From Pseudanabaena mucicola str. Chao 1806 (GTDB lineage Bacteria; Cyanobacteriota; Cyanobacteriia; Pseudanabaenales; Pseudanabaenaceae), in assembly GCF_030323025.1 (NCBI RefSeq), contig NZ_CP097329.1, positions 3,024,001 through 3,088,000 of the forward strand: DNA of 64,000 nt, read 5' to 3'. This document shows positions 23,573 through 51,442 of this stretch, piece after piece (position 1 is the stretch's first letter; each line of letters opens with the position of its first letter). Below the pieces are notes generated by a model, which was not told the DNA's origin, searched no databases, and worked only from the letters and a program-made list of their open reading frames with translations. The translations under genes and the position numbers were made by a program.

Positions 23573-23650
23573 GGCTTTGAGTAGTACAGCAATATTTTTG
23601 AAAGTGTCGCGAAGCGACACTTTCAAAAATATTGCTGGGGTTTAAGTAAC
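23573..23650. repeat. Dispersed palindromic repeat, family A, copy 3 (inverted)
   Basis: Perfect 24-bp stem (23587-23610 with 23614-23637) and 3-base loop, the strongest hairpin in the window. The flanks GGCTTTGAGTAGTACAG (left) and TTTAAGTAACG (right) are the reverse complement of those of copy 1. It abuts the family B element at 23646. Confidence 0.88.
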
Positions 23651-23718
23651 GTCAGTTTGGGTTAAGCTGGCAAATCCTGTCTCAAATCCTGTTTCAAATT
23701 ATCCCGAACTCGCGTTAC
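23646..23718. repeat. Dispersed repeat, family B, copy 1
   Basis: Begins GTAACGTCAGTTTGGGTTA and ends TTATCCCGAACTCGCGTTAC, giving imperfect terminal inverted repeats. A second, longer copy lies at 50831-50979 with nearly identical ends. The element covers the stop codon (23715-23717) of the CPBP protease gene. Confidence 0.75.
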
Positions 23719-25304
23719 TTACCACCTAAAGCAATTAAGGCTAAGAAGCTACCACTATTCCATAAGCAATGTAATAGCATAGAAGAAAGAAGATTTTTTG
23801 ATCGCCAATAGACAAATCCCATTACTATTCCCAAAACACTAAGGGGGAAGATATCTGCAATATTCAAATGGGCAAGTGCAAATAAAAAGCCGCTAGCAGC
23901 GATCGCTCCCCAAACTGGTAAAAACTTGGTCAGTGAAGGTAATAAAAATCCGCGAAATAAGTACTCCTCAAAAAACGGTGCAGCGATCGCTAAAGTTGAC
24001 CAGAGTAGGAACTTTGGCAAAATATTTTGGCTTTCTGTCAAAATTGGTAATAGAGGATTGCCACCACCTTGACCTTGGAGAAACTTTTGGCTGATCACAG
24101 AGACAATTAGCACCAGTGGCACGGCTGCGAAATACCCACCAATTCCCCATGTCAACCAATGTGGCGAAGTTAATTTAAATCGGAACCAACCTTCAGGCAA
24201 GGGACGATAGCTAGCGAGACTAAATCGTAAAATCGGCAACATTGGGATCACCGAGACTGTATAGGGAATTAGTACCAATAGAGCCTGTAATGTAAAATCT
24301 TCGCTAACTCTTGATTCAATTCCTAATAGCTCAAAGATTAAGGGTAATACTAACTGAGTAATTAAGCAAAAAGCTGAAAACCATAAAATCATCACTTCCC
24401 AGATCGTCTCCATTCCCCAAGGCACTTGCCAATTAATTTGATTGGAAGTTTGACTAGTTTCACTTTCTGATTGAGAATCTAATTTGGTATAAAAGGGAGA
24501 AGATTTGCGAAAGAAGATCCACTGAACTATGAGTCCTAACCAGAGTACAACGCCAATACTACCACCGATTAGAGGAATAGAATTGACAATTACAAGGCGT
24601 TTAATAGCTTTATCTACAGCAATTTGAGCCTGTTGGGAGAGGTTGCTTAATTCTGTATTTCTTTGTTGAGCTTGATAGAGTTTAGTGAGTGCAACTTGTC
24701 GATACCAACCATCGAGAGTATTCCTAATCTGAGTTTCCGCATTAGGGAACAATATAGTTGGATCTGACCATAATCCTTGAAGGATTTGGGAGGTTAATCC
24801 GTAGCTGGTCATAGATTCTCCCTCAACCTGTTTAACATTTGACCATGTAGCGATCGCGCCTTGAATATCTCCCGTTTGAATCTGGAGCAATCCTGCTCTC
24901 ATACTGATCTCGCTGACAGCATCTTGCTTTTTTTGGAGTTGTTTCGGAATAGATTGAGAATCTGCGCCACTCATATCTTGGGAAAGCCGCTCAAGAGCAG
25001 CTTTATTAGCTTGTAATACCTCTTGATAACTTCTAAGAGACTGTATATAGATATCTTGAGGATCTCCATCACTGATTAGCGATTGTAAGAAATCTCCTGC
25101 AAAATGATCTTGTTCTTGATCAACTGATTGCGTTGCTTGCAAAATTAAATCTGTTTGTAGCAAATCTAATTTTGTCTGCTCTTGTGAACTATTCCAACTT
25201 ACCTGCAACGTCAGGATAATAAAAAAAACAGACAGTAAGCTAAGAATACTTAATAGTAATGATTTCGCATTCCAAGATTTATCGTTTAACGACTGAGAAT
25301 CCAT
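23715..25304 (-). CDS. CPBP family intramembrane metalloprotease
   Basis: 529 aa. An N-terminal membrane anchor (near residues 15-35) is followed by a mostly helical extracytoplasmic region, one helix near 235-258, and a multi-helix C-terminal domain. Catalytic motifs are FFEEYLFRGF (Glu-Glu and Arg), FALAHLN (His) and a final HCLWNS. The family includes CAAX prenyl proteases and bacteriocin-immunity proteins. The extra N-terminal coiled-coil region is typical of cyanobacterial members. Its last codons run into a family B repeat. Confidence 0.88.
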   Translation of the reverse strand: MDSQSLNDKSWNAKSLLLSILSLLSVFFIILTLQVSWNSSQEQTKLDLLQTDLILQATQSVDQEQDHFAGDFLQSLISDGDPQDIYIQSLRSYQEVLQANKAALERLSQDMSGADSQSIPKQLQKKQDAVSEISMRAGLLQIQTGDIQGAIATWSNVKQVEGESMTSYGLTSQILQGLWSDPTILFPNAETQIRNTLDGWYRQVALTKLYQAQQRNTELSNLSQQAQIAVDKAIKRLVIVNSIPLIGGSIGVVLWLGLIVQWIFFRKSSPFYTKLDSQSESETSQTSNQINWQVPWGMETIWEVMILWFSAFCLITQLVLPLIFELLGIESRVSEDFTLQALLVLIPYTVSVIPMLPILRFSLASYRPLPEGWFRFKLTSPHWLTWGIGGYFAAVPLVLIVSVISQKFLQGQGGGNPLLPILTESQNILPKFLLWSTLAIAAPFFEEYLFRGFLLPSLTKFLPVWGAIAASGFLFALAHLNIADIFPLSVLGIVMGFVYWRSKNLLSSMLLHCLWNSGSFLALIALGGK

Positions 25305-50806: not shown

Positions 50807-50830
50807 ATATAGTCTGGAGCATTCGTTACC

Positions 50831-50979
50831 TAACGTCAGTTCGGGTTAAGCTGGCAAATTTTAGAAGCCCAAAAGTAAAAGCTTTGCTTAGCAAGGCTTT
50901 TACTTTTGGGTTTTGAGAGAGGGTTTGCTACTCAAGCCCTCTCTCAAAACCTGTCTCAAATTATCCCGAACTCGCGTTA
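50831..50979. repeat. Dispersed repeat, family B, copy 2
   Basis: Ends TAACGTCAGTTCGGGTTAAG and ATTATCCCGAACTCGCGTTA match the 23646-23718 element. The middle is longer, with two nested hairpins: CCCAAAAGTAAAAGC paired with GCTTTTACTTTTGGG, and TTTTGAGAGAGGG with CCCTCTCTCAAAA. It ends one base before the ssb stop codon, on its downstream side. Confidence 0.78.
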
Positions 50980-50980
50980 T

Positions 50981-51442
50981 TTAAAAGGGAATATCGTCAT
51001 AGTCTGGAGCATTTGTTGCAGGAGATGCCACAGGCGCATAGCTAGATGTCGGTACAGCAGCACTAGGCGCACTAGATGGATTTGCTCTAGGACTACGTGC
51101 AGGTGCAGCAGTTGTCGTAGCAGTTGTATTTGCAGTGCTACCAGCCCCAAAGCTATGAACTCGTTGAGCAACCAGTTCAGTTCGCTTTTCTTTGTAAGTA
51201 CCGCGATCAACTATATCAAGACGGAGACGACCTTCTACGACAACTTGATCGCCTTTATGATATTTTTCCATAATCTCATCCGCTAAATTGTTCCAGCCCA
51301 CGACCTTGATACGATAAGGTGCATCTTCAGCACGTCCACCTGCAAACTGGACAAGAAATGAAGCGATCGAGCTTTGGTTATCGGGAGTACGGCGCAGTTC
51401 TGGATCAGTTAGCACTTCTGCCATCAAGACAATAGAATTCAT
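50981..51442 (-). CDS. ssb: Single-stranded DNA-binding protein
   Basis: 153 aa. OB fold with NSIVLMAEVLTDPELR, IKVVGWNNLADEI and GDQVVVEGRLRLD, then a Thr/Ala/Pro-rich linker and the acidic partner-binding tip DYDDIPF. It coats ssDNA during replication and repair. The family B repeat directly follows its stop. Confidence 0.95.
   Translation of the reverse strand: MNSIVLMAEVLTDPELRRTPDNQSSIASFLVQFAGGRAEDAPYRIKVVGWNNLADEIMEKYHKGDQVVVEGRLRLDIVDRGTYKEKRTELVAQRVHSFGAGSTANTTATTTAAPARSPRANPSSAPSAAVPTSSYAPVASPATNAPDYDDIPF

Follow-up and report, generated by a model that had tools for sequence, protein, structure and literature searches.

Family B of Pseudanabaena, a Probable IS982-Type MITE: Target Site, Gene Ends, and Hairpin Evolution

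Nezha is reportedly a non-autonomous MITE of cyanobacteria, and it is likened here to family B, the repeat analyzed in this study, by description only, as a cyanobacterial MITE. MITECca01 of Cardinium, in the passages of PMC9769881 that describe it, resembles family B in being short, in lacking a transposase, in having IS982-like ends, and in lying mostly between genes. The SPRITE, RUP, and BOX elements of Streptococcus pneumoniae, as presented in parts of PMC3049150, share with family B a small size and an enrichment between convergent genes. At the level of hairpins, passages of PMC8604942 and PMC8794818 describe how template switching between the arms of an inverted repeat gives arm homogenization and spacer inversion.

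We consider it highly probable that the family, found in Pseudanabaena, is a non-autonomous MITE of the IS982 type whose target site, position at gene ends, and hairpins are explained as proposed below. Its kind, the IS982-derived MITE, is already known from Cardinium. No earlier description of the family was found in the literature searched, which left out most subscription papers.

Ends, copies, and IS982 relatives of family B

The window (the whole 64,000-nucleotide stretch of DNA that was analyzed) holds four and three matches to the two ends of the element, against means of 0.01 and 0.00 in window shuffles. A search of the 4.53-Mb Pseudanabaena chromosome with both ends gave 101 clusters of end matches, which include at least 74 two-ended copies. 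We picked 75 two-ended elements by hand among the possible pairings, dropping alternatives that overlapped, the majority of the long pairings, and a small number of borderline cases, and left one-ended clusters unplaced. Identity to the consensus averaged 93% (0.932) over 95 full-length copies. Matches to the family are present in 23 of 23 same-genus genomes and in 0 of 15 genomes from other genera, and the exact end pattern occurs in 97 stretches of the genome collection, all from Pseudanabaena. Some copies in different species may be one old insertion (e.g., L194 and 1032463). Within the genomes searched, the element is confined to the genus Pseudanabaena.

The sequence-only reading placed one repeat at 50831-50979, beside ssb, and another at 23647-23717, at the end of a CPBP protease gene, and both are found there (Table 1): the ssb stop (50981-50983) begins one base beyond its repeat, and the CPBP stop (23715-23717) consists of the last base of the element plus flank. 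The repeated ends described in that reading are real, but their borders were drawn 2 bp too far out on each side, the outer TA being part of the target duplication. We take the element to be the 145-bp sequence ACG...CGT because full-length IS982 copies show ends of the same type with duplications outside them; reading those copies also led us to replace a 2-bp duplication with TAACG ends by a duplication of 6 to 9 bp with ACG ends. The two hairpins in the middle of the ssb copy had been regarded as extra, which proved wrong: the standard form has 149 bp, the exact length of 48 of the 74 genome copies, and the CPBP copy is therefore a deletion derivative. Both inner hairpins are present in most copies and missing from the CPBP copy.

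Table 1. Coordinates of the family B copies, their target copies, and the adjoining genes in the window
Feature	Position	Strand	Details
MITE deletion derivative at CPBP	23649-23715	+	67 bp, without both hairpins
CPBP (Rce1-like) protease gene	23715-25304	-	PF02517, E 6.1e-22
Target copy at CPBP	23716-23721	-	TACTTA; base 23715 plus target gives stop TAA 23715-23717
Left target copy at ssb	50827-50832	.	TACCTA; 4/6 bases match right copy; decayed or rearranged
MITE copy at ssb	50833-50977	+	145-bp core ACG...CGT; strand by family convention, left end ACGTCAG
Left terminal inverted repeat of ssb copy	50833-50849	+	
Hairpin 1 of ssb copy	50864-50914	+	24-bp arms; loop TTA 50888-50890, flipped form of commonest TAA
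Hairpin 2 of ssb copy	50915-50945	+	14-bp arms; loop TAC 50929-50931, flipped form of commonest GTA
Right terminal inverted repeat of ssb copy	50961-50977	-	
Right target copy at ssb	50978-50983	-	TATTTA (TAAATA on ssb strand); contains ssb stop 50981-50983
ssb	50981-51442	-	Protein ends DDIPF; SSB PF00436, E 1.2e-16

The terminal repeats, of about 17 bp, are imperfect and are paired in the predicted fold, and a transposase gene is absent, the 145-bp core being too short to encode one. Short, without a transposase, bounded by terminal repeats, flanked by a target duplication, dispersed in many copies, and sharing its ends with an IS, family B has the features of a MITE. In one 252-bp copy (L008 4030-4281), the MITE contains an additional palindrome, apparently from the insertion of a further mobile hairpin.

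The likely source of mobility is an IS982-family element. A broken 1,058-bp IS with MITE ends lies at 4411404-4412461 (L089 2501-3558), its transposase split over two frames; against NF033520, the model of the IS982 transposase, the pieces in the two frames score 101.6 and 39.1 bits, both below the cut-off of 130, and the larger part reaches 207.9 bits, above that cut-off, in a six-frame genome search. An IS982-family element in genome G012 (L255) has a 306-amino-acid open frame, 92% identical to the broken copy over the matched part; it starts ACGTGAGTTCGGGTTAAG and ends CTTATCCCGAACTCACGT, as the MITE does, and is flanked on both sides by TAATCA, a 6-bp duplication. This intact IS982 of a related genome, with MITE ends and a 6-bp duplication of its own, is our reason for assigning family B to the IS982-type MITEs. 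Against that assignment, the intact donor is in G012 and the matching copy in this genome is broken. An IS982 transposase would move the MITE in trans; empty and filled sites are what is observed. Eight near-identical IS982-family copies in this genome (L091-L098), with a 310-amino-acid frame, were probably active recently. In L091 and L095, two of the eight, the sequence begins ACGTGAGTTCGACG, the ends are related to those of the MITE, and duplications of 7 bp are present. Although their inner ends differ, the eight copies could mobilize the MITE in trans.

Target site, stop codons, and gene ends

Insertion sites were examined in three sets: this genome; 97 stretches from three further genomes of Pseudanabaena, in which 51 of 65 elements were usable; and 60 loci from G002, G021, and G022, the 20 best-listed copies per genome, in which 62 of 63 elements were usable. 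Exact duplications of 6 to 9 bp flank 34 of the 75 elements in this genome (19 of 6 bp, 12 of 7 bp, 2 of 8 bp, and 1 of 9 bp), and random re-pairing of left and right flanks gave 2.5 duplications of 6 bp and 0.2 of 7 bp against the 19 and 12 observed. The corresponding fractions were 19/51 in the three other genomes and 48/62 in G002, G021, and G022. The target consensus is TANN(N)TA, which is palindromic, with TAATTA as its best form. An empty site, GAGTAATTAAGC, in G002, the closest genome, corresponds to copy 2826826, which reads GAGTAATTA-element-TAATTAAGC in this genome.

TAAATA also follows ssb in G002, where there is no element, and inspection by eye of the 12 ssb loci of the genus that extend far enough downstream (L105-L116) shows no element within about 330 bp. 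Two features of the ssb copy weigh against the IS982-type explanation: its target copies match at only 4 of 6 positions, and a 19-bp near-copy (95%) of the ssb 3' coding end (50999-51017) lies on the far side of the element at 50809-50827. At the position of this near-copy, G002 has a GC-rich palindrome.

To relate the sites to genes, each copy was removed together with one duplication, genes were called on the restored sequence, and the sites were compared with random and with motif-weighted positions. The gene caller was custom-made and of fourth order, trained on 196 to 262 long frames for this genome and the three-genome set and on 94 for the G002/G021/G022 set, and its stops are predictions. 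The target overlaps a stop codon at 17 of 71 non-interior sites in this genome (uniform expectation, 2.1; motif-weighted, 9.2; P = 0.008), at 10 of 46 in the three other genomes (1.4 and 4.1; P = 0.007), and at 15 of 58 among the best-listed copies of G002, G021, and G022 (2.7 and 10.4; P = 0.08). Over all three sets, about 6 overlaps are expected at random and about 24 under the motif model. In this genome, 12 of the overlapped stops are TAA and 5 are TAG, with no TGA among them, in agreement with the motif prediction. Copies inside genes are scarce: 3 of 74 here (37.6 under the motif model), 5 of 51 in the three genomes (27.3), and 4 of 62 in G002, G021, and G022 (34.0). A previous count that put eight copies within genes, each close to the 3' end, was partly an artifact of a duplication left in the joined flanks; three are in genes. 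Among the other intergenic copies, convergent gaps hold 23 of 54 (expected, 13.7), 11 of 36 (3.3), and 14 of 43 (5.3) in the same order of sets. At L079 2501-2649 (G000 3936374), a MITE copy interrupts a gene that is uninterrupted in its G002 relative and that presumably encodes a Uma2-type protein.

The sequence-only reading had proposed scoring each copy for its distance and orientation to the nearest stop codon, with a random spread as the contrary result; the copies are nonrandom, with gene 3' ends enriched and interiors nearly empty in all three sets. The gene-end bias is thus genuine, but the targeted insertion offered as one possible cause is mostly explained by TANN(N)TA together with purifying selection. 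Copies often lie exactly on stop codons, largely because TAA and TAG match TANNTA and because insertions within genes are lost. In mechanistic terms, the first TA of the target would come from TAA or TAG, the stop would stay in place through the duplication or a new TAA would be completed by the first A of the element, and selection would remove insertions within genes. With motif and selection giving most of the bias, an active search for gene ends need not be invoked for that part, and site-specific targeting as the main cause is unnecessary under the motif-weighted null. The fit is incomplete: a modest excess of stop overlaps over the motif model remains (1.4- to 2.4-fold; 17 versus 9.2, 10 versus 4.1, and 15 versus 10.4).

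Transcribed copies may possibly act as bidirectional terminators or as hairpins at mRNA ends. It is conceivable, if rather doubtful, that the element is a mobile terminator and that gene-end copies are kept for ending both convergent transcripts, replacing native terminators. Its long hairpins on both strands, with A-tract and U-tract flanks of the inner stem (AAAAGTAAAAGCCTTGC...GCAAGGCTTTTACTTTT), are consistent with such a role, as are the RNA fold on the ssb side (-71.6 kcal/mol; z, -10.3) and five sites at which G002 has a terminator-like hairpin right after the stop and this genome has the element alone (2285388, 2305229, 3162009, 1060072, and 2017247). Of the genes that carry the element at their stop and have a G002 relative with a terminator, five of five are without one beyond the element, compared with three of seven controls, a small and nonsignificant difference, and the pneumococcal SPRITE, in parts of PMC3049150, offers a precedent. 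In a search for intrinsic terminators, which have a GC-rich stem with a U-run after it, a laxer custom scan was positive on both strands. However, the standard scan detects no terminator within the ssb copy; only a short U-tract (4/8) follows the full stem; the U-tract side changes U to C jointly with the partner base; the short copies have no hairpins; and a terminator-like hairpin beyond the element occurs in 6 of 17 stop-element genes, near the baseline of 86 of 271.

Direction by the insertion process itself, for example by coupling to termination or to supercoiling in convergent regions, would also bring copies to gene 3' ends, and we judge it improbable. Both stop overlaps and convergent gaps exceed the motif model, as active direction would have it, and the CPBP gene end was used in two species: G002 has its own MITE copy on the same stop, with an exact duplication, TAGTTA, that holds a TAG stop. 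Because the two orientations are opposite and the target copies differ, these are two independent landings, and such recurrence on one stop speaks for directed insertion. However, within stop and convergent sites taken together, the motif predicts about 37% at stops (15 of 40), and 17 were seen; the near-empty gene interiors indicate strong selection, which favors 3' ends as well; and there is no orientation bias. The same orientation relative to the gene, remarked on for the ssb and CPBP copies, holds for those two but is not general: among the 56 copies of this genome that lie within, or closest to, the 3' end of a gene, 30 are opposite to the gene and 26 are in the same direction. The CPBP copy adjoins a perfect palindrome of another kind (23587-23637; 24-bp arms, 3-base spacer), and long palindromes like it follow several ssb stops in the genus.

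Pairing and loop inversion in the hairpins

The two inner hairpins were compared over 149 distinct full-length copies, with events counted on a poorly resolved tree of the 145-bp sequences. Across the ten central pairs of hairpin 1, 34 cells have switched to another Watson-Crick pair, 1 is G-U, and none is broken. By parsimony, this core shows 26 to 29 two-sided against 1 to 3 one-sided events (the range reflects the tree columns used), while 20 pairs of the terminal repeats in the same copies show 1 to 2 two-sided against 207 to 231 one-sided events. The edges of the hairpin 1 stem (22 to 28 two-sided, 83 to 90 one-sided) and hairpin 2 (25 to 39 and 60 to 64) include many one-sided changes, and therefore correction is incomplete or selection also acts. 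A second tool, applied to 49 distinct rows, agrees on the covariation, with two-sided change at 16 pairs against a mean of 3.8 after shuffling (0/500).

The 3-base loops of both hairpins are seen in either orientation. Hairpin 1 loops form partner classes (TAA 55 and TTA 16, TAC 28 and GTA 27, ATA 6 and TAT 3, TAG 5 and CTA 4), as do those of hairpin 2 (GTA 82 and TAC 45, ATA 5 and TAT 4, TTA 4 and TAA 2, TCC 3 and GGA 1). Summed over each hairpin, reverse-complement partners account for 51 and 52 copies, merely reversed ones for 0 and 0, and merely complemented ones for 4 and 4; on the rough tree, exact inversions number 24 and 40. A switch from GTA to TAC changes all three bases together. 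Both hairpins thus display arm homogenization and spacer inversion, the marks of a template-switch hotspot. We regard template switching as the best explanation because short-loop hairpins and distant terminal repeats contrast within the same copies: polymerase switching templates at palindromes, rather than mainly selection on RNA structure, would keep the hairpins nearly perfect. Selection on structure may contribute as well, mainly where one-sided changes are seen, in hairpin 2 and along the edges of the stem.

That the arms stay paired through selection on RNA or DNA structure (as a terminator, an RNase shield, or a transposase signal), with ordinary compensatory mutation, seems unlikely to us. 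Strong covariation in the hairpins would suit it, and Bacillus cereus terminators have selected pair switches in the part of PMC5381666 that treats them. Yet G-U is the commonest intermediate in that part of PMC5381666, in contrast to 1 G-U, 34 matched, and no broken cells in the hairpin 1 core, and selection on structure would not lead one to expect that loops invert exactly or that about 150 unrelated loci are equally strict.

Template switching and termination might also be combined. The MITE would then be a spreading, self-correcting bidirectional terminator: landing on a stop codon would spare the protein, its hairpins would assume the work of termination while the native terminator decays, and template switching would maintain the hairpins without selection at each locus, a reading to which we give little weight. 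If it were true, its hundreds of copies would serve as a natural record of how often templates are switched in a bacterial chromosome.

As for other classes of repeat, REP and REPIN sequences are associated with the RAYT tyrosine transposase. REP/REPIN sequences, palindromes of 20 to 40 bp with a GTAG/CGTC tag in passages of PMC3733652, are ruled out by the 145-bp length, the ACGTCAG ends, the 6- to 9-bp duplication, and the DDE transposase relatives, and a known RNA family is rejected on 16 sub-threshold Rfam matches, mostly to microRNA models, with none at the gathering score.

Family B among known mobile elements and hairpins

In parts of PMC9769881, MITECca01 differs from family B in its length of about 240 bp, in its endosymbiont host, and in its proposed role of inactivating IS elements. 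An analysis of stop codons and hairpins such as the one made here for family B does not appear in the MITECca01 passages of PMC9769881. SPRITE, in passages of PMC3049150, resembles a terminator and lies near the 3' ends of genes. The sequences of SPRITE, RUP, and BOX given there are unrelated to family B, and SPRITE is described in those passages with only AAAA/TTTT ends and without an established target duplication, whereas the ends, duplication, and donor IS of family B are clear. A TA-rich, stop-matching target that is duplicated on insertion is a way for a mobile element to fill gene ends with proteins left unharmed.

The MITE hairpins resemble the template-switching cases in parts of PMC8604942 and PMC8794818 in arm homogenization and spacer inversion. 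Those passages concern yeast coding genes and also RNA genes, whereas here about 150 copies of one element are available. The MITE hairpins are an unusually clean test of template switching, in which selection and mutation can be separated because the roughly 150 dispersed copies share ancestry and the terminal repeats are a built-in control. They also carry a warning: covariation in short-loop palindromes, though usually read as proof of RNA structure, can arise without it. The internal control given by the terminal repeats distinguishes the hairpin test made here from those in the passages of PMC8604942 and PMC8794818.
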